A stretch of 39,825 bases of DNA from a virus. The DNA lies in IMG/VR virus record IMGVR_UViG_3300035698_026777, positions 1-39,825 of that record. One strand, given 5' to 3'. Shown piece by piece: positions 1 to 39,825 of this stretch. The notes below the pieces were generated by a model. That model had not been told where the DNA came from. It worked only from the letters and a program-made list of their open reading frames with translations, and searched no databases. Numbering within the stretch: the first letter of the stretch is position 1; each line of letters opens with the position of its first letter. Made by a program: the position numbers and the translations under genes.

Positions 1-127
1 AAAATGGTAAAAACAAAAAAAGAACAAGAAGGTAAAGATGTATTTGAGTATAGTGTCTTTGGAAGTCCTAATCAGAAGATAGGAAACTTCACAGGTCAAA
101 AAAAACTTACAAGGTGGTCAAGTTGAT
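1..127. repeat. Terminal direct repeat, left copy
   Basis: Bases 1-127 are identical to 39699-39825. The repeat covers a 40-codon reading frame and the beginning of the MT-A70 gene, so it splits one continuous locus. A length of exactly 127 matches a common assembler k-mer, so it most likely reports a closed circular or permuted genome rather than a physical terminal repeat. Confidence 0.95.
4..126 (+). CDS. 40-aa hypothetical peptide within methyltransferase cassette 1
   Basis: ATG at 4 opens 40 codons ending in TGA at 124-126. It is basic and polar (MVKTKKEQEGKDVFEYSVFG...) with no recognised family. The same frame is present in the right repeat copy at 39702-39824. Its AAAATGG start context follows the left hairpin, as the start of the m5C-like gene follows the matching hairpin of cassette 2. 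It overlaps the downstream GTG start at 114. It may be a real leader peptide or a remnant of an earlier cassette gene. Confidence 0.35.
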   Translation: MVKTKKEQEGKDVFEYSVFGSPNQKIGNFTGQKKLTRWSS

Positions 128-743
128 ACCATTTCCAAAAAAGAAATATAAAGTAATTTATGCTGACCCTCCTTGGCAATGGCAAACATATTCAAAGAAA
201 GGCATATTGTCTGGATGGGCAGAAAAAAGTTATAATCTTATGAATACTCAAGATATATGTGATTTACCTATTAAAGAAATTGCTGATAAGAACTGCATAT
301 TATTTCTTTGGGTAACTTTTCCAAGATTAAAGGATGGTATAAATGTATTAGAATCTTGGGGATTTAATTATAAAACAGTTGGTTTCTCTTGGGTAAAACT
401 AAATCCAAAAGGTGTTGGTTACTATTCTGGATTAGGATATTATACAAGAAGTAATGTTGAAATATGTTTAATTGGCAGAAAAGGTAATTTGAAAGTTATT
501 GATAGAAAAGTAAAACAATTAGTAGTATCGCCAAGAGGAAAACATAGTGAGAAACCAGTAGAAGTAAGAAATAGAATATTTCAAATGTATGGAAATATTC
601 CAAGAATTGAATTGTTTGCAAGAGATAAACCTAAAGGATGGGATGTTTGGGGAAACGAAGTATCTCTTAATACTAAACAAGAAGGGGGTAACGGCATTCC
701 TCCCACTAATAAATTAGTGGGTATCCTGCCTAAAGAATTATGA
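114..743 (+). CDS. MT-A70 family adenine-N6 DNA methyltransferase
   Basis: A 209-residue protein with the MT-A70 signature DPPW at residues 18-21 (IYADPPWQW), inside a Rossmann-like SAM-dependent methyltransferase fold. Known members transfer a methyl group to the N6 of adenine in DNA or RNA; viral forms usually modify the viral genome against host restriction. The start is GTG at 114, overlapping the preceding small frame by 13 nt; no better ATG is in frame near the DPPW. The last about 20 residues are encoded by the right hairpin (692-733), suggesting the C-terminus was created or shared by that element. The stop overlaps the next ATG (ATGA). Confidence 0.88.
   Translation: MVKLIPFPKKKYKVIYADPPWQWQTYSKKGILSGWAEKSYNLMNTQDICDLPIKEIADKNCILFLWVTFPRLKDGINVLESWGFNYKTVGFSWVKLNPKGVGYYSGLGYYTRSNVEICLIGRKGNLKVIDRKVKQLVVSPRGKHSEKPVEVRNRIFQMYGNIPRIELFARDKPKGWDVWGNEVSLNTKQEGGNGIPPTNKLVGILPKEL
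692..733 (+). repeat. Right hairpin of methyltransferase cassette 1
   Basis: A 42-nt element starting CGGCATTCCTCCCA and ending GGGTATCCTGCCTAA, with an 8-bp stem CCCACTAA/TTAGTGGG and loop TAAA; GGCA/TGCC can close it outside. The same 42-nt layout with different but still paired stem bases occurs on the minus strand at 32503-32544. The form resembles IS200/IS605 right-end hairpins. It overlaps the 3' end of the MT-A70 gene. Confidence 0.7.
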
Positions 744-868
744 AAGAATACAAAAAACCATTACAAAAAAAGAAAAAAGATAAAAAATTCACATCTAAAA
801 AGAAAGAGGTAATTTATAAGGATGGGACAGCAGGACATAGCGAAGATTCTGAGAGACAATTATCCTAA
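740..868 (+). CDS. Possible 42-aa lysine-rich peptide
   Basis: ATG at 740 overlaps the MT-A70 stop as ATGA and opens 42 codons ending at TAA 866-868. The first half is almost all lysine and polar residues. It overlaps the next gene (822) by 47 nt in another frame. Translational coupling is plausible, but no family is recognised and it may be spurious. Confidence 0.25.
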   Translation: MKEYKKPLQKKKKDKKFTSKKKEVIYKDGTAGHSEDSERQLS

Positions 869-2862: not shown

Positions 2863-5130
2863 ATGGCTTTTTTTCAATCAATAATTAGGAATATCAATCA
2901 ATTATCTAAACAGACATTACCAGGTTCTCCATTAACAAATGATGAAATTGGATTTACATCAACAACTTATTCTACTCAACAAAGCCCAGAGGATAGAGAA
3001 GCCATTTATCCTAATTGGTTTTTTTCAGCAAGATTAGGACAACCAAGAAATGTTGATACTAGGAAATTAAGAACACTTGCAAAATCTCCTTGGGTTCAGA
3101 TGGTTATATCAACTTTTAAAAAACAGATAGATACTATTGATTGGAAAATTGTGTCTGCGGATGAAGATGATGAATCAGACCATACTAAAGATATCAAAGA
3201 GTGTATGGATTTCTTGATAAAACCAAATGAGAATAAACAATCAATAAATGATATTAATTCTGAAATAATAACAGATATTTCAGAGATAGATGCAGGATGT
3301 GCAAATTATGTTTATTCTCAAGATTCTTATATTATCGGTGAAATTCCTGTTTATAATGGATGGGGACAAGTTGTAAGCACTGAAACAGGATTAGTATTGA
3401 AACCATTAGGACAGAGACAACTTATAAAACTTAAATCTGTTGATGGATCAACAATGCTTAAACAAGTTGATATTCATAAGAATCTGTTGAATTTTTGGCA
3501 ATATTCATTTAAACATCCTAGACAGAATCCTACAAGATTTGAAATGGATGAAATTGAATATTTGATAATGAATCAAAAATCATATGATGTTTATGGTTTT
3601 GCACCTACTCAATCAATACAACAAGCAGTGGAATTATTGATCCAGGGTACTAGGTATAATAAGGATTTATATACAAATAATGCAATTCCTGATGTAATAA
3701 TAAGTTTGCCTAAATTAGCAACACCACAATTAAAAAAACTTAAACGAGCATGGAATAATAATTATAAAGGAAAACCGCATCAAGTAGGGTTTATTAATTG
3801 GATGATAGACAAGATTCAGAAACTTAATGATACTAATAGGGATCTGGAATGGCTTGAAGGACAGAAATGGTATTTCAAATTAGTATTTGCAGTTTATGGT
3901 GTAAGTCCTACAGAAGCAGGATTTTTCGAAAATGCTAATAAATCTAATGATGAAGGACAGGAAAGAATAACTGTCAGAAATGCATTAAAACCTTATCTTA
4001 AAAAATTAGAGATGCTTCATACAAGAAAAACGATTACAGAGATTCTTCAGAAAGAGGATCATGGATTGGTGTTCAAATTTTTTCCAAAAGACCATGTAGC
4101 AGAAAAGATTGAGTTCGATCAGGATATGAAAGAACTTGAAATAGGAGCATTAACAATTAATGATTACAGAAAGAAAAAAGGAAAAGAACCGTATGAATGG
4201 GGTGGTGAACCATTAAAGCGCCCTTTTAATCCTGAATCTTTTATGAATTTTGAAGAACCTGGAAATAATAATCCAAATGTGACACAATTAAATGATCAGA
4301 ATAATCCTGACCAAGACCCCAGTAATAAATTGAATTCTAAAACAATTTCACCCCCAAAAGTCGTTGTTAATAAAAATGATATTGATGCTGGATATGATGT
4401 GGTTATTGAAGCCCAGGATTATTCTGATTTTCTTTTAAAATTCTTTGATAATCTCGAAAAACGAGTATTGATATCAGCTAATAAGATAGATGTTGAAAAA
4501 TCATATGTTCAAAAAACATTAGGTGAATTTTTAAGAAATTTATTTAATGTTGTTAATACAGTAGCTTTTGCAAAAAATGTAAGAAAATATATCCGGGAAG
4601 ATTTAATTGCAGGATTATCATCAGCTGAATCAGAATTAAATATGGATATAGGGTTTTCAAAAACATATGAAAATAAACTTAATGTTTTATCGGCACAACA
4701 GATTGACGGATATCTTATCAATGGCAAGAAATGGCCAGGGATAAAAGGAGTTACAAAAGAGATTCAGGCTGATGTTATCAAAACAGTTCAGAATGGACTA
4801 CATGAAAAGAAAAGCCTGGATGGAATAAAAGAAGATATTAAAGCAAGATTTGATGTGTTTTCTGATTGGAGAAGTGAAATGATCGGAAGGACAGAAACAA
4901 CCAGAATCTTAAATGAGGGGAAAATTTTAGGATATAAAGAATCAGGAATAAAAGGAAAAAAGGTATGGAGTGCTGCTATTGATAACAGGACAACCGACAT
5001 CTGTAAAAGATTAAATGGGCAATCAATAGAGCTTGATAATGATTTTATAGATACAGAAACAAGAAAAGCTTATGGTTCACCACCTGCACATCCTAATTGT
5101 AGATCAACAATTTTTTTCAAACCAAATTGA
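2863..5130 (+). CDS. Portal protein fused to MuF-like head morphogenesis domain
   Basis: A 755-residue fusion. Residues about 60-440 are a phage portal of HK97/SPP1 type, including the conserved stretch KWYFKLVFAVYGVSPTEAGF. The portal forms the dodecameric DNA channel at one capsid vertex. A linker rich in Asn, Pro and Gln (about 465-500) leads to a C-terminal Mu gpF-like domain (about 640-755) with the classic ending IGRTETTR...AAIDNRTTDICKRLNGQ...PPAHPNCRS. MuF proteins are usually a separate minor head gene; here portal and MuF are one polypeptide. The ATG lacks a ribosome site and follows a TATA box at the leaderless distance. Confidence 0.9.
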   Translation: MAFFQSIIRNINQLSKQTLPGSPLTNDEIGFTSTTYSTQQSPEDREAIYPNWFFSARLGQPRNVDTRKLRTLAKSPWVQMVISTFKKQIDTIDWKIVSADEDDESDHTKDIKECMDFLIKPNENKQSINDINSEIITDISEIDAGCANYVYSQDSYIIGEIPVYNGWGQVVSTETGLVLKPLGQRQLIKLKSVDGSTMLKQVDIHKNLLNFWQYSFKHPRQNPTRFEMDEIEYLIMNQKSYDVYGFAPTQSIQQAVELLIQGTRYNKDLYTNNAIPDVIISLPKLATPQLKKLKRAWNNNYKGKPHQVGFINWMIDKIQKLNDTNRDLEWLEGQKWYFKLVFAVYGVSPTEAGFFENANKSNDEGQERITVRNALKPYLKKLEMLHTRKTITEILQKEDHGLVFKFFPKDHVAEKIEFDQDMKELEIGALTINDYRKKKGKEPYEWGGEPLKRPFNPESFMNFEEPGNNNPNVTQLNDQNNPDQDPSNKLNSKTISPPKVVVNKNDIDAGYDVVIEAQDYSDFLLKFFDNLEKRVLISANKIDVEKSYVQKTLGEFLRNLFNVVNTVAFAKNVRKYIREDLIAGLSSAESELNMDIGFSKTYENKLNVLSAQQIDGYLINGKKWPGIKGVTKEIQADVIKTVQNGLHEKKSLDGIKEDIKARFDVFSDWRSEMIGRTETTRILNEGKILGYKESGIKGKKVWSAAIDNRTTDICKRLNGQSIELDNDFIDTETRKAYGSPPAHPNCRSTIFFKPN

Positions 5131-5147
5131 GTAGTAATTAAATATAG
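5129..5147 (+). promoter_or_regulatory. Late-type TATA promoter, copy 2
   Basis: GAGTAGTAATTAAATATAG matches the promoter at 2823. The TATA core (5137-5144) is 28 nt before the protease ATG at 5168, the same spacing as at the portal. It overlaps the portal stop codon. A GAGG at 5157-5160 could also act as a ribosome site on read-through mRNA. Confidence 0.65.
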
Positions 5148-5167
5148 ATACATTTTGAGGAATAACC

Positions 5168-6055
5168 ATGAAAACTGAAAAATCAACACATGATAAATAT
5201 AAAACAGAGTTATTTATGCCAATTATGAAAGAATGCGAAGGAAAATATATTGCAGTTCTTTCTGATAATTCTATTGATAGAGATGGAGAAAAATTATCAA
5301 AATCATGTGTTGAAAAATTAGATGCTGATGATGGATATCTTGCTGCGCTTTGTAACCATGATAATGATGTATTTATGCAAGTTGCGGAATGGACTAATAA
5401 AGGAATTAAAGAAATAGATGGGCATACTGCACTTGTTGCAGAACCTCGATTTTTTACTAAATCCAGTCCACAAGCAAGACAGATAAAAGGAATGCTCGAT
5501 GAAGGTGCAAAAATAGGGATATCTATCGGTGCTATTGTAAAAACTTTTGATGAAGTAGATGATATGCGAGTTTTTACAGAATTGGAATTAGTTGAAGCAA
5601 GCTTTGTTGCGGTCCCGAGCAATAGACATGGAAGAGCAATGGCGGTTGCAAAATCGTTTAATAAAAAAATTAATCTGGAGGGGTTAAATATGGAAAAAGA
5701 ATTTACACAAAAAGATATAGATTCTGCTGTAAATAAAAAAGTGGAAGAAGTGATACTTGATTATCGAAAACAGCTAGAAACAAAAGATGCTGAAATTGAA
5801 AAATTTAAAGCTGATATTGTGAAAGCAGAGGAAGAAGCAGAAAAAACAGAAGAAGAAAAGAAAGATGCTGAAGAATCAGCAGAAGAAACTGATAAGAAAT
5901 TGAAAGAGACAGAAAAGCTTCTAAAAACAGAAAAAGAGAAAGCATTGGAAAAAATGAAATTCGCAAGTGAAGGTAATGGTGAAGAAGCAAATGAAGATAC
6001 AGAAGAAACAGAAAAATCATTTGGCGATGGGAAATTACCTATAATGCGTATGTAA
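5168..6055 (+). CDS. HK97-type prohead protease with C-terminal scaffold domain
   Basis: A 295-residue protein. The N-terminal about 165 residues form a herpes-assemblin-like/HK97 prohead protease: His64 in CNHDND, Ser119 in IGISIGA, and the downstream ELELVEASFVAVPSN. These proteases mature the capsid inside the prohead. From about residue 175 a highly charged coiled coil (E/K repeats) forms a scaffolding domain. Codon 175 is an ATG preceded by CTGGAGGGG, so the scaffold is probably also made alone. The major capsid gene follows 8 nt later, the normal protease-scaffold-capsid order. Confidence 0.88.
   Translation: MKTEKSTHDKYKTELFMPIMKECEGKYIAVLSDNSIDRDGEKLSKSCVEKLDADDGYLAALCNHDNDVFMQVAEWTNKGIKEIDGHTALVAEPRFFTKSSPQARQIKGMLDEGAKIGISIGAIVKTFDEVDDMRVFTELELVEASFVAVPSNRHGRAMAVAKSFNKKINLEGLNMEKEFTQKDIDSAVNKKVEEVILDYRKQLETKDAEIEKFKADIVKAEEEAEKTEEEKKDAEESAEETDKKLKETEKLLKTEKEKALEKMKFASEGNGEEANEDTEETEKSFGDGKLPIMRM
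5690..6055 (+). CDS. Internal in-frame scaffold protein (121 aa)
   Basis: ATG 5690 is in frame with the protease (codon 175) and carries TCTGGAGGGG about 8 nt upstream, one of the strongest ribosome sites in the structural region although it lies inside a gene. It begins MEKEFTQKDI, exactly at the protease-to-coiled-coil boundary. Nested scaffold translation is known for lambda C/Nu3. The inference here is that free scaffold is produced in excess over the protease fusion. Confidence 0.6.
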   Translation: MEKEFTQKDIDSAVNKKVEEVILDYRKQLETKDAEIEKFKADIVKAEEEAEKTEEEKKDAEESAEETDKKLKETEKLLKTEKEKALEKMKFASEGNGEEANEDTEETEKSFGDGKLPIMRM

Positions 6056-6063
6056 GGAGGGAA

Positions 6064-7131
6064 ATGAGAATGAAAGCAATATTTAAATCATATGAAGATG
6101 GATTTAGTATCGACAAATGCCGAGAAAGATTTGATCCAGGAAATATAGATAAAGATAATTTTGGCGGATTTTCAAAGGAATATTATAATCCATTTACAAG
6201 AGTGGATAAAAATGTTGAAATCGCTAAAAGAACATTTACAAGTGTTCAAAAAGCATCTATTGATTCACAGACAGGCGGAGCAGGAACCGCAGGAACTGCA
6301 TTAGTACCTGTATATCCAGACCCAAATATAGTCAATAGAACAATAAGACAGACACCATTGAGAAACATTACACCACGAAGAGCTGTAAGAGGATTGACTT
6401 ATGATTATATACCATTAACAGTAAAAGGTGGAGCATATTGGGCAGCAGAAAACGGAGCTTTAACAGAAGTTGAAGATACTTATGACAGAGTTTCTATTGC
6501 AATAAAATTCCTATATGCAAAAGGATTGATTTCAGGACCGGCAATTGCAGGTATGAAAGGATTTATTGATCCTGCACAGCTAGATCTAGGAGTGAAAACA
6601 GATAGCATTTATGAAGCAGAAGAAGATGCTTTGATAAATGGAGATGCAACAACAACACCTCTTGAACCTAGTGGAATGATTAAATCAATAACGACTAATA
6701 CAACTAATCTTTCTGGTGGTAATCCAACACTTGCAGGAATAAGAGCAGAGCTTGCAACAACTTTTAATGCAAAAGGATTTCCAACAATAGCTGTTACAGA
6801 TGCAACAACTCATAACTATGTGAAGGGATTATTGTTAGATATTCAAAGACAAGTAAAAAATCCGTCAGAAGGAATACTTGGATTTGGAATACCTGATGCA
6901 TTTGAATTCGATCAGTTGATGGTTATTAAGGATATTTTCATGCCAACAACAGCTGCATCAAAAAGAATATTATATCTAGATATGAGATATATATTCTTTG
7001 CAGTGCTTCAGGATTTAACATACGAAGAAAAATACACTGATCAAGATGGGTTTGTATATTTATTAAAAGAATATCTTACCATTGCAAATACATTTGAAGG
7101 AGCAAGTTCTCAGATGTATGGTATTGCGTAA
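6064..7131 (+). CDS. Major capsid protein, HK97 fold
   Basis: A 355-residue capsid protein. After an N-terminal delta-like region of about 60 residues comes a Gly/Ala-rich stretch (SQTGGAGTAGTALVPVYPDP), then HK97-fold features: an E-loop region (YDYIPLTVKGGAYWAAENGA), a spine helix and P-domain (DALINGDATTTPLEPSGM), and an A-domain (FNAKGFPTIAVTDATTHNYV). It assembles the icosahedral shell. AAGGAGGG at 6054 is only 3 nt before ATG 6064 but 8 nt before ATG 6070, so translation may start at 6070. Order after protease/scaffold supports the call. Confidence 0.9.
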   Translation: MRMKAIFKSYEDGFSIDKCRERFDPGNIDKDNFGGFSKEYYNPFTRVDKNVEIAKRTFTSVQKASIDSQTGGAGTAGTALVPVYPDPNIVNRTIRQTPLRNITPRRAVRGLTYDYIPLTVKGGAYWAAENGALTEVEDTYDRVSIAIKFLYAKGLISGPAIAGMKGFIDPAQLDLGVKTDSIYEAEEDALINGDATTTPLEPSGMIKSITTNTTNLSGGNPTLAGIRAELATTFNAKGFPTIAVTDATTHNYVKGLLLDIQRQVKNPSEGILGFGIPDAFEFDQLMVIKDIFMPTTAASKRILYLDMRYIFFAVLQDLTYEEKYTDQDGFVYLLKEYLTIANTFEGASSQMYGIA

Positions 7132-7146
7132 GGAGGGAAATAAAAA

Positions 7147-7425
7147 ATGACTGCTGTAACTGAAACTTTTAGGAAGTTTGGATTCATGGGTGATTTAAAA
7201 ATAATTACAATCCAAGGAGATGCGACCACATCATCAGGGACTACAATTGATTTGGATAGCGATATAACTGATGGAAAAGGAACAGTAATGACACAAGTTT
7301 TGAACACATTAGTTCAAGATGATGCAGGAGCAGATGTGACAAGCACATGGGACCCTGATACTGGGATAATTACTCTTGGAACAATATCTTTCGGAATCCA
7401 TAATATAACCATAATAGGTTATTAA
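7147..7425 (+). CDS. 92-aa virion protein, paralog A (putative capsid decoration)
   Basis: A 92-residue Thr/Asp-rich, probably all-beta protein (TIDLDSDITDGKGTVMTQVL) directly downstream of the capsid gene with an AAGGAGGG ribosome site. It is about 60% identical to the next gene over its full length, including GDLKII, SDITDGKG, QDDAGAD and the last ten residues GIHNITIIGY. Position, size and copy number fit a decoration (cement) or fibre protein on the capsid. Ends in an extended T-tract. Confidence 0.65.
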   Translation: MTAVTETFRKFGFMGDLKIITIQGDATTSSGTTIDLDSDITDGKGTVMTQVLNTLVQDDAGADVTSTWDPDTGIITLGTISFGIHNITIIGY

Positions 7426-7455
7426 TTTTTTTTTATTTTTTTTATTTTTTTTATT
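7426..7455 (+). terminator. T-tract terminator after paralog A
   Basis: Thirty bases nearly all T, interrupted by single A residues, directly after the stop codon and with no GC stem. This fits archaeal U-tract termination and could step down expression after the capsid gene. Confidence 0.5.
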
Positions 7456-7488
7456 ATATTAAAATAACTTTCAAGGAGGAAATGAAAA

Positions 7489-7767
7489 ATGACAGATGTC
7501 GTAGAAACTTTCAGAAAGATTGGATTCACAGGAGATTTGAAGATAATCAATATACAAACTAGCGCAGCAGCAGCAACTGGCCATCTTATAGATTTAAACA
7601 GTGATATCACAGATGGGAAAGGTGTTGTGATGACAGAGATTTTAAATACTTTGATACAAGATGATGCTGGAGCAGATAAAACAACTACATGGGTTGCTTC
7701 AACTGGAGTGATTACTCTTGGTTCAATATCCACAGGAATTCATAATATAACTATAATTGGTTATTAA
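7489..7767 (+). CDS. 92-aa virion protein, paralog B (putative capsid decoration)
   Basis: Second copy of the tandem pair, same length as its neighbour and preceded by CAAGGAGGAAATG. Conserved blocks are ETFRKIGFTGDLKII, DLNSDITDGKG, LIQDDAGAD and GIHNITIIGY; the variable part is residues 22-32 (SAAAATGH). The duplication is old, since synonymous sites have diverged. Function is inferred from its place between the capsid and other head genes. Confidence 0.65.
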   Translation: MTDVVETFRKIGFTGDLKIINIQTSAAAATGHLIDLNSDITDGKGVVMTEILNTLIQDDAGADKTTTWVASTGVITLGSISTGIHNITIIGY

Positions 7768-7770
7768 ATA

Positions 7771-7787
7771 TTTTTTTTTTTATTTTT
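7771..7787 (+). terminator. T-tract terminator after paralog B
   Basis: TTTTTTTTTTTATTTTT follows three bases after the stop codon. No hairpin. An ATTAAATA box overlaps the stop (7763-7770) and could restart transcription near 7792. Confidence 0.45.
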
Positions 7788-7801
7788 AGTAATGACTGTA
7801 T

Positions 7802-7870
7802 CATGCGGCCTGGGACTGCATGGTGAAAGCACTTTGTAAACTACAGAGGGGCAAACAACTCCCAGGGAGA
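7802..7870 (+). promoter_or_regulatory. Structured leader RNA 1 (candidate pseudoknot)
   Basis: CATGC (7802-7806) pairs with GCATG (7818-7822), and CCTGGGA (7809-7815) with TCCCAGG (7860-7866). The two stems cross, forming an H-type pseudoknot. A 6-bp hairpin CTTTGT/ACAGAG (7832-7837 with 7843-7848, one G-U) lies in the long loop. The 3' strand of the second stem runs straight into the ribosome site AGGGAGA (7864-7870) of the next gene, so folding should affect its translation. Seen by eye, not computed. Confidence 0.5.
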
Positions 7871-7878
7871 CAAATAAA

Positions 7879-8736
7879 ATGACACATGATGATTTAACTG
7901 ATGGGTTCAGAACAGTCCCAGCAGGTGGAGCAGCAGCACCACCTTTTACACACCCAAGATATAATTTTGCTTCTAAAATAACATTCGAGCAAGGTGCAAG
8001 AATGGCACCAGGCAGATTTGGTCTTGAAGAAAACTTCTTACAGATACCTGATGCAACCGCTGTTATTTCAGCACCTTTAACAAATGCCGATGCAACTGAT
8101 TCAGCAAACGATGCAATTATTCTTGCAAGAGCAAATGCTAATATGAATTTTGAAATTACAGGAACCAATGCAGATATTTCAGATTTTAGCTGGAGCACAA
8201 TCAATGGTGGACTTTTACTACAAACAGGTAGTGCAGACAATGACCAAGTTATAGTTCATCCACATTTACTTTCTAAGCATACAGCTTGGGCCGGTGTTCT
8301 ATGGGGAACAGAAAATCAGGTTGTTTGGGAAACTCAATTGATGTCTACTACTGTTATTACACCGATTCTTGTATGGGCAGGACTTAAATTAACAAGCGAT
8401 CCAGTTACAGCAACAGATGATGACCAGGCGTATTTTAAATTTGATACTGATGTAGCATCTGAAACAACTTGGCATTGTGTTTATAGTATTGGTGGAACAG
8501 ATGTAACTGTTGATTCAGGAATAACATATGCTGCATCCACAGCATACAATTTGAGAATTGAAATTGATGCAAGCAGAATACCACATTTTTATATTAATAA
8601 TGTTGAGGTTGTGATAGGGACTGCATTAACAAATGATATTGATTTAATTCCATATGTTGGTGTACAACAATTAGGTTCAGGCGATTCAAGTCTTGTATTA
8701 TGTTATGAAAAAATTTCAAGAAAATTATTTGAATAA
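7879..8736 (+). CDS. Structural protein with lectin-like beta-sandwich C-terminus
   Basis: A 285-residue protein of low charge. The N-terminus (about 1-35) is Ala/Pro/Gly-rich and flexible. Residues about 125-285 look like a concanavalin/LamG-like jelly roll (DDQAYFKFDTDVAS, then AYNLRIEIDASRIPHFYINN), a fold common in virion surface proteins that bind glycans. No signal peptide. Position after capsid and decoration genes suggests a head fibre or capsid surface protein. Translation starts at an ATG 9 nt after the structured leader. Family assignment is tentative. Confidence 0.6.
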   Translation: MTHDDLTDGFRTVPAGGAAAPPFTHPRYNFASKITFEQGARMAPGRFGLEENFLQIPDATAVISAPLTNADATDSANDAIILARANANMNFEITGTNADISDFSWSTINGGLLLQTGSADNDQVIVHPHLLSKHTAWAGVLWGTENQVVWETQLMSTTVITPILVWAGLKLTSDPVTATDDDQAYFKFDTDVASETTWHCVYSIGGTDVTVDSGITYAASTAYNLRIEIDASRIPHFYINNVEVVIGTALTNDIDLIPYVGVQQLGSGDSSLVLCYEKISRKLFE

Positions 8737-32165: not shown

Positions 32166-32287
32166 TGTGTAGCTCCAATTTCTATTGCAGCTGGCCATCC
32201 ACATAAATATTTGAATTTATTCTGTTCTACTTCACTTAACAGATCATAATATTTTTTCAGTGTTTCGGCTTTAGTTATTTTGTGCAT
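32162..32287 (-). CDS. 41-aa hypothetical protein
   Basis: MHKITKAETLKKYYDLLSEV...CGWPAAIEIGATQ. It begins inside the end of the zinc-ribbon gene and ends in an ATGA overlap with the m5C methyltransferase start, so it may couple the two. No family recognised. Confidence 0.45.
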   Translation of the reverse strand: MHKITKAETLKKYYDLLSEVEQNKFKYLCGWPAAIEIGATQ

Positions 32288-32496
32288 TTTATTTTATTTT
32301 CCTCACATTTAACTATACAATTTTTACATCCTCTCCCAGGAAATTTACATTTAATAACTTCGCCATTTATAGGCATCCAGAATGGTTTTTGATTATAAAA
32401 TATTTCTCTAGACCAAGTATATCCACATTCTGGGCAAACATGAAAATTTTTCTTATGTTCTAGCATCTCTGGATACCCACAATTATCACATCTCAT
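32275..32496 (-). CDS. Zinc-ribbon protein
   Basis: A 73-residue protein with MRCDNCGYPEM and HVCPECGYTW knuckles (a classic CxxC...CxxC ribbon), then a second Cys cluster KCKFPGRGCKNCIVKCEENK. It starts 7 nt downstream of the right hairpin of methyltransferase cassette 2. Role unknown. Confidence 0.65.
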   Translation of the reverse strand: MRCDNCGYPEMLEHKKNFHVCPECGYTWSREIFYNQKPFWMPINGEVIKCKFPGRGCKNCIVKCEENKIKCTK

Positions 32497-32502
32497 ATAA
32501 AG

Positions 32503-32544
32503 TTAGGCAGGATACCCGACCTTTTAAGGTTGGGAGGAATGCCG
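32503..32544 (-). repeat. Right hairpin of methyltransferase cassette 2
   Basis: Read on the minus strand it starts CGGCATTCCTCCCA and ends GGGTATCCTGCCTAA, identical at both ends to 692-733 and equally 42 nt long. The stem is different (AACCTT/AAGGT) yet still pairs, i.e. compensatory change. Confidence 0.7.
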
Positions 32545-32562
32545 TGTAATAGTTTCACACCG

Positions 32563-33195: not shown

Positions 33196-33244
33196 TTTAG
33201 TTTTTAGATACCCCTCCCTTTAGGGTGTGGGAGTATGTCATTTT
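33192..33244 (-). repeat. Left hairpin of methyltransferase cassette 2
   Basis: On the minus strand: AAAATGA, then a stem CTCCCACACCCT-AA-AGGGAGGGG with mismatches, then TATCTAAAAAC and AAAATGG containing the gene's start codon. The same order (AAAATGA, hairpin, TTTCCAAAAAC, AAAATGG) occurs at 39650-39705. Confidence 0.6.
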
Positions 33245-39472: not shown

Positions 39473-39651
39473 ATATAAAACTTACACCAGAACAATTTAA
39501 AGAGCTGTGGATTAAAGGAGAATGTGAAACAAAATATGGCAAGATATTGATAGTTAATCCATCGCCAGAGGGGTATAGCCCAATATCTGCATTATATGAA
39601 TATCTTGCATTATTAACGAAAGTACAATCTAAAATACATCTAATAACATAA
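39466..39651 (+). CDS. Hypothetical 61-aa protein
   Basis: MVNIKLTPEQFKELWIKGEC...: a short alpha/beta protein overlapping the large terminase by 7 nt, with GGTGAG upstream. It ends immediately before the left hairpin of methyltransferase cassette 1. No family recognised. Confidence 0.5.
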   Translation: MVNIKLTPEQFKELWIKGECETKYGKILIVNPSPEGYSPISALYEYLALLTKVQSKIHLIT

Positions 39652-39705
39652 AATGAAACCCTCTACCCACTAAAGTAGGTAGTTTCCAAAAACAAAAGAA
39701 AATGG
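39650..39705 (+). repeat. Left hairpin of methyltransferase cassette 1
   Basis: AAAATGA, then a stem CTACCCACT-AA-AGTAGGTAG (one mismatch), flanked by GAAAC/GTTTC, then CAAAAAC and AAAATGG with the start codon of the 40-aa frame. Same order as 33192-33244 on the minus strand. Confidence 0.6.
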
Positions 39706-39825
39706 TAAAAACAAAAAAAGAACAAGAAGGTAAAGATGTATTTGAGTATAGTGTCTTTGGAAGTCCTAATCAGAAGATAGGAAACTTCACAGGTCAAAAA
39801 AAACTTACAAGGTGGTCAAGTTGAT
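39699..39825. repeat. Terminal direct repeat, right copy
   Basis: Exact second copy of bases 1-127. Joining the ends at this repeat gives a 39,698-bp circle in which the left hairpin at 39650 lies directly upstream of the MT-A70 gene that begins at 114. Confidence 0.95.

Follow-up and report, generated by a model that had tools for sequence, protein, structure and literature searches.

Why should two unrelated methyltransferase genes, lying on opposite strands of one viral genome, each be bracketed by the same pair of hairpins? An earlier note on this DNA had raised the question and suggested a non-autonomous carrier of methyltransferase genes with ends resembling the IS200/IS605 type. The window analysed here is the whole 39,825-base stretch, a virus record; it is the genome of a tailed archaeal virus, and its genes include those for a terminase large subunit, a portal protein, a Mu-F-like protein and an HK97-type capsid protein. 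Since its first 127 bases are repeated at its end (39699-39825 = 1-127), the genome is, judged from the sequence, circular or circularly permuted, with a length of about 39.7 kb. This repeat falls within the first of the two cassettes, which hence spans the contig ends (Table 1), and the join is backed by a related virus (L139), where the genes on either side of cassette 1 are contiguous. Our answer, which we hold with high confidence, is that the cassettes are non-autonomous members of the IS200/IS605 type (single-strand elements of a Y1/HUH TnpA) from a DPANN/virus lineage in which other genes have replaced TnpB.

Table 1. Features of the two cassettes, numbered by position in the window (LE, left end; RE, right end; MTase, methyltransferase)
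Feature	Position	Strand	Basis or remark
Cassette 1	39657-39698 + 1-743	+	785 bp, MT-A70 cargo
ATGA target left of cassette 1	39653..39656	+	Former start codon of target gene; sequence, L139 empty site
LE hairpin, cassette 1	39657..39690	+	R2 model 54.4 bits; left 69 aligned bases as in L021
tnpA relic ORF, 41 codons	4..126, also read at 39702-39825	+	tblastn; L029 alignment
MT-A70 adenine MTase gene	114..743	+	Pfam MT-A70 7.4e-30; ORF
RE, cassette 1: two-part hairpin, AT-rich spacer, ATGA	691..743	+	R1 model 75.9 bits; covariation
Cassette 1 target gene, 42 aa, ATGA start supplied by RE	740..868	+	Uninterrupted homologue at L139 5594-5737
Cassette 2	33237-32493	-	745 bp, m5C MTase cargo
ATGA target left of cassette 2	33238..33241	-	Sequence
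LE hairpin, cassette 2	33203..33237	-	R2 model 59.5 bits; near-identical LE beside tnpA in L284
Short C5-type MTase gene, 210 aa	32563..33195	-	Pfam 3.1e-09; 73% identical to L127 cargo
RE, cassette 2, terminating in ATGA	32493..32545	-	R1 model 71.8 bits
Cassette 2 target gene, zinc-ribbon-like, 73 aa, ATGA start from RE	32275..32496	-	ORF, sequence

Two cassettes between the same ends

The claim that one set of hairpins surrounds both an MT-A70 gene and an unrelated, short C5-type gene is borne out. The RE cores (691-733 on the plus strand and 32545-32503 on the minus strand) are both 43 nt long, stand in inverted orientation and are 79% identical; the RE pattern occurs exactly twice in the window record, and its reversed control not at all. 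Hairpins around most genes, whatever the cargo, had been named as a finding against the cassette idea; instead, two such ends are present in this genome and none in the L139 record. Both REs fold alike into a two-part hairpin, in which an internal loop separates the inner stem from an outer one of 4 bp, so that the right stems do pair as had been noted, apart from one mismatch in cassette 2. The pairing is also seen across relatives: over 19 REs, 95.6% of the stem cells pair, with 43 double-changed cells as compared with 13.7 in shuffles and at most 10 in slid controls (covariation score 0.444 versus 0.095 for shuffled stems), and the RE of L105 preserves an outer pair through an A-T to T-A exchange. 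At the left, the layout in the window is ATGA, about 10 nt, and a hairpin whose loop reads TAAA. Judged by folding energy alone, these left hairpins are unremarkable (z about 0), that of cassette 1 folding weakly; we have accepted them as real because the same structure precedes tnpA in many genomes. The two ends are imperfect subterminal hairpins on one strand, the LE and RE models matching in same-strand order.

For the borders, we have scanned 2.9 million viral contigs for the RE pattern and obtained 30 loci. In every viral RE match whose contig extends far enough, an ATGA lies shortly 3′ of the hairpin, and the listed viral LEs lie directly 3′ of an ATGA, with L136 as the sole exception. 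The elements thus span from just after one ATGA through a second. Among host REs, ATAA is often read rather than ATGA (in several cases). With these borders, the unit sizes first given, about 782 and 742 bp, need a small correction, since each unit extends roughly 10 nt further to the right, up to its ATGA. The AAAATGG placed at the start codon does begin the methyltransferase of cassette 2; in cassette 1 it begins the 41-codon relic ORF.

The MT-A70 protein has 209 residues when read from GTG 114 and 206 from TTG 123, the latter being the more likely start. The C5 methyltransferase of cassette 2 matches only the N-terminal part (half) of its Pfam family; dozens of similarly short forms were seen in viral contigs. 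Going by family membership, the probable benefit of such enzymes, presumed to be active, would be protection of the viral DNA or imitation of the host's methylation pattern.

Transposase-bearing relatives and the loss of tnpA

The ends had been likened to those of the IS200/IS605 type, and their recurrence around tnpA or other cargo had been proposed as a check; this is what we have found. In L015, L021 and L029, the RE lies downstream of an IS200-type transposase gene plus another gene; L015 and L021 also have the LE, and the L029 contig stops before the LE position. These loci, together with L105, L127 and L116, have a common organisation of LE, IS200 tnpA, cargo and RE. The transposase is a true member of its family: the L021 protein matches Pfam Y1_Tnp (5.6e-36), the NCBIfam equivalog for IS200/IS605 transposases (139 bits, cut-off 55), and ISHp608 and other solved IS200-type TnpAs in the PDB, and it contains DHIH and YINEQ, in line with the Y1 (HUH) motifs DH[VI]H and Y---Q as defined in PMC6006769. 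Its close homologues (about 65-83% identity) come mostly from Woesearchaeota, Nanoarchaeota and Aenigmarchaeota MAGs. In the nine tnpA loci among these homologues that have a strong RE match, the RE is located downstream of tnpA and on its strand. At E <= 0.001, 86 of 371 DPANN phylum genomes have an RE match, and this TnpA is present in 10 of the 14 best-matching genomes versus 10 of the 357 others (Fisher 1e-11). No TnpB was seen in the tnpA-bearing DPANN-type elements examined.

In four of the loci (L108, L110, L119 and L021) we have also observed a conserved leader between the LE and tnpA, about 150 nt upstream of tnpA, whose terminal hairpin takes in the ribosome-binding site of tnpA (CCACCT...AGGTGG before ATG); this hairpin resembles the translational control known for IS200. 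An Rfam scan of eight loci matched no family.

In bacterial viruses, loci that share this RE type have ORFs which, by their sequence motifs, look like TnpB or IscB, and so the end type is not limited to the DPANN cargo group. By eye, elements with this RE type and the ATGA border have a TnpB-like ORF on the other strand in L004, L007, L012, L013, L022, L023, L030 and L262, and an IscB-like ORF accompanies the same RE type in L016. In an element of this end type at L003 9329-9973 (reverse-complement coordinates), a TnpB-like region seems, by eye, to be partly replaced by a PD-(D/E)XK endonuclease-like ORF; L010, L019 and L032 are similar to the L003 element.

Integrons, too, have cassettes of one gene each, whose ends are folded and whose content is interchangeable, and this similar layout, hairpin ends included, could suggest that the window cassettes are integron-like units moved by a tyrosine integrase. 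However, the recombinase linked to the ends is a Y1/HUH IS200 TnpA; a unit has two different ends instead of one attC; and insertions are scattered, each after an ATGA and not in an array, cassette arrays being unseen. Neither attC nor a tyrosine integrase was seen, and we regard this reading as barely credible.

If the ends are those of a transposon, where is its tnpA? It had been stated that TnpA is absent, and there is indeed no intact gene, but cassette 1 retains the tail of one. The first 69 aligned bases of this cassette (border ATGA, LE and leader) are identical to those of L021, which itself carries tnpA and a different methyltransferase, save for one 1-nt gap. The alignment then jumps to the 3′ tail of tnpA, with 88 of 100 nt identical to L029 and 62 of 71 to L021; relative to L021, cassette 1 represents a 572-bp deletion. 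The 41-codon ORF across this junction is the leader fused to the IS200 tnpA tail (tblastn, 86% over TnpA residues 152-180), and its TGA overlaps the TTG start of the MT-A70 gene, the position where the L033 homologue starts (MIPFP). This mini-ORF is more simply regarded as a tnpA tail, which may have kept the ribosome-binding site of the cargo, than as a conserved peptide. Similar tails precede other cargo in L017 and L031.

Cassette 2 has retained no tnpA sequence, and the window has no TnpA-like sequence other than the tail in cassette 1. Its methyltransferase is nevertheless the relative of a cargo next to tnpA: the L127 counterpart (an Aenigmarchaeum MAG, with LE, tnpA and RE) is in the same clade of the tree with support 100/95. 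As read from these alignments, both cassettes are deletion derivatives of autonomous, tnpA-bearing elements, and the designation non-autonomous is right for both copies.

The empty site and insertion at start codons

An empty site in a close relative was also sought, and for cassette 1 it is provided by L139, a virus related to the window (portal 56%, capsid 74%, terminase 60%). Its gene order is TerL, a small ORF, an intact target gene with an ATGA start, and an HTH gene, and its record has neither an MT-A70 homologue nor an RE. By comparing the intact target gene (MRTYNYKK...KSKKKEVIYKNGSTGN...) with its window homologue (MKEYKK...TSKKKEVIYKDGTAGH...), it is clear that the element was inserted exactly after the ATGA, with the ATGA regenerated. 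For cassette 2 no empty site was found: a search of viral contigs for homologues of the window's D5-type helicase gave none, and in G008, where a distant homologue of the helicase exists, the cassette 2 flank is not syntenic.

The empty site also bears on whether the hairpins arose beside genes as transcription terminators, mRNA-stability or packaging elements. The hairpins have stems rich in G+C and are found where genes meet, as such elements would be; yet in many genomes the same ends surround tnpA as well as unrelated cargo, relatives of the methyltransferases lack the hairpins, and the empty site is exact. Linkage to tnpA and the empty site rule this reading out for practical purposes, and we give it a very slight probability.

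Since the RE gives the ATGA back, viral ends are often located on start codons. An ORF of at least 50 codons starts in the terminal ATGA of 17 of the 26 non-redundant REs, versus 25% for the ATGAs of those loci in general (p about 2e-5). A ribosome-binding motif is found at 7 of 13 viral left sites against a background of 18% (the Fisher value of 0.008 for these sites was computed on 14, window cassette 1 being counted twice). In contrast, host left sites have the motif in 2 of 16 cases against a background of 16%, and show no start-codon bias. That all insertions occur at start codons can be rejected, as host sites are unbiased and L015 appears to split a reading frame. The simplest reading of the bias is selection in compact viral genomes, where insertions survive best if the RE restores a start. 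In addition, the cargo stop is the TGA of the terminal ATGA in cassette 1, L017, L021, L025, L127 and L136. With the ATG returned and the cargo stop often in the same ATGA, insertion should do little harm.

Based on what is known of the family, the following course of events can be proposed. The ancestral form would have consisted of ATGA, left hairpin, regulated tnpA, cargo gene, right hairpin and ATGA. TnpA would recognise both hairpins on one strand and cut after each ATGA, and the resulting single-stranded circle would be inserted after another ATGA, with chemistry and polarity as in IS200/IS605. At a start codon, the terminal ATGA would return an ATG to the downstream gene, with presumed translational coupling. 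The window copies have lost tnpA and kept both ends and an open methyltransferase gene; to move, they would need TnpA in trans, from the host or from a co-infecting element.

Cargo, kinship with known elements and mobility

What lies between the ends is varied: the cargo is of around a dozen kinds, and sizes range from about 0.35 to 4.6 kb. Viral cargo includes MT-A70, C5, N6/N4 and other methyltransferases, a PAPS reductase (L025), another PAPS-reductase-like protein (L029) and a radical-SAM-like protein (L031), the latter two with no Pfam match, and an RNA ligase (L136, whose LE is the same as that of cassette 1 save for a short gap). In DPANN genomes, we have found a DUF2229 and BadF/BcrA-type activase pair (CoA-enzyme activase, L116), DUF2157 with GDYXXLXY (L119), an antisense glycosyltransferase with GH130 (L275), and reverse transcriptases (L265, L125 and, by eye, L270). 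A further example is L118, in which an antisense 1174-aa type IIG restriction-modification enzyme (Eco57I, TaqI_C; 4617-8138, minus strand) is encoded in an LE-tnpA-RE unit of 4.5 kb whose tnpA frame is disrupted. In the largest host units, the LE-RE pairing rests solely on same-strand order downstream of tnpA.

The reverse transcriptase genes at L265 1253-2368 (-) and L125 5708-6964 (+) match RVT_1 at 4e-26 and 9e-27. The L265, L125 and L270 units are about 3 kb long with LE, tnpA and RE, and the reverse transcriptase stands beside an asparagine-rich or variable-looking protein; possibly, whole diversity-generating retroelements are transposon cargo here. In cyanobacteria, IS200/IS605 transposases have been reported near DGR variable proteins, as neighbours (PMC7517822).

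The RE was absent from all 67 viral loci with methyltransferase relatives (best E 0.14), meaning that the cargo comes from a common pool and that the ends are not part of the methyltransferase genes. Relatives of the enzymes without the ends had been named beforehand as a finding against the cassette idea; they do occur, yet they are to be expected if cargo is recruited from such a pool.

The elements share with IS608 and ISDra2 of the IS200/IS605 family the Y1/HUH TnpA, a pair of imperfect subterminal hairpins located on one strand, and insertion 3′ of a target that is short and fixed, in this case ATGA, with no target duplication beyond it; terminal inverted repeats were not seen either. They differ in having cargo genes at the place of TnpB, the DPANN-type elements lacking the TnpB/IscB partner of the IS605 subgroup (tnpA plus tnpB), and the window copies also lack tnpA. 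Among non-autonomous derivatives, the PATEs of Haloquadratum are short and have the family ends and no transposase. To our knowledge, PATEs carry no genes, whereas the window cassettes carry intact open ones. IS derivatives with passenger genes are known as transporter ISs (tIS, PMC9330008), and the present elements are likewise IS-sized carriers, with the difference that the expected mechanism is single-stranded and hairpin-based; no IS200/IS605 tIS was found in the literature searched. IStrons (PMC4227781) are also IS200/IS605-type elements with a device that renders insertion harmless, but they splice out of RNA, while the window elements return a start codon through the terminal ATGA. In PMC8612924, IS200/IS605 and IS607 elements are described as holding no genes but those for transposition and its regulation. 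No description of cargo-bearing IS200/IS605 elements or of start-codon return by ATGA was found in the open-access literature searched, which is weak evidence for novelty. Descent is from the IS200/IS605 family, and gene carriage in the place of TnpB looks undescribed.

Are the window copies still mobile? Mobilisation in trans is plausible, considering the intact ends and the matching TnpA genes in related genomes. The main rival to the present explanation shares its origin and differs on present mobility: the cassettes would be dead remnants, with a tnpA that decayed in place, methyltransferases that are ordinary viral genes, and hairpins that are fossils or RNA stems. The tnpA relic in cassette 1 fits this, as does the wide occurrence of such methyltransferases as ordinary viral genes without the ends; no second copy of either cassette was seen, nor did any one tnpA-less cassette turn up at more than one site. 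However, the hairpins and the terminal ATGA are complete in both copies though the internal tnpA is gone, the ends are also kept in other tnpA-less cassettes (L011, L017, L031, L136 and L283), and TnpA genes with matching ends are present in presumed hosts and viruses. We consider dead remnants possible but on the improbable side, and prefer non-autonomous elements that may still be mobilised.

In its widest form, our explanation would have DPANN and their viruses share a single-strand cassette system, in which one TnpA family moves ATGA-bounded cassettes of very diverse content in cis and in trans, the viral ones landing on start codons, borrowing the ribosome-binding site, and returning the ATG with the operon unbroken. 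We propose this tentatively, as an idea that stops just short of being probable; if it is true, genes can be added without breaking the recipient operon in compact viral genomes. Few mobile elements are as simple as those of the IS200/IS605 family, and here a DPANN/virus lineage of them has turned gene carrier. This gives methylases and other accessory genes a concrete path by which to pass between viruses and hard-to-culture hosts. Start-codon return would be a harmless-insertion trick distinct from IStron splicing, and the ATGA borders with the hairpins make a simple, testable signature.

Several minor observations can be added. The closest relative of the cassette 2 methyltransferase (82%, L039 1145-1744) is without both ends; its C terminus runs into recombinase-like sequence, and a serine-recombinase-like gene adjoins. 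In L017, a second, more divergent RE (3544-3596) lies behind a radical-SAM-like gene with no Pfam match and has no recognised LE. Finally, contigs repeatedly end inside the elements (the window, L024, L025/L282 and L029), as expected if the elements are repeated in the sampled communities.
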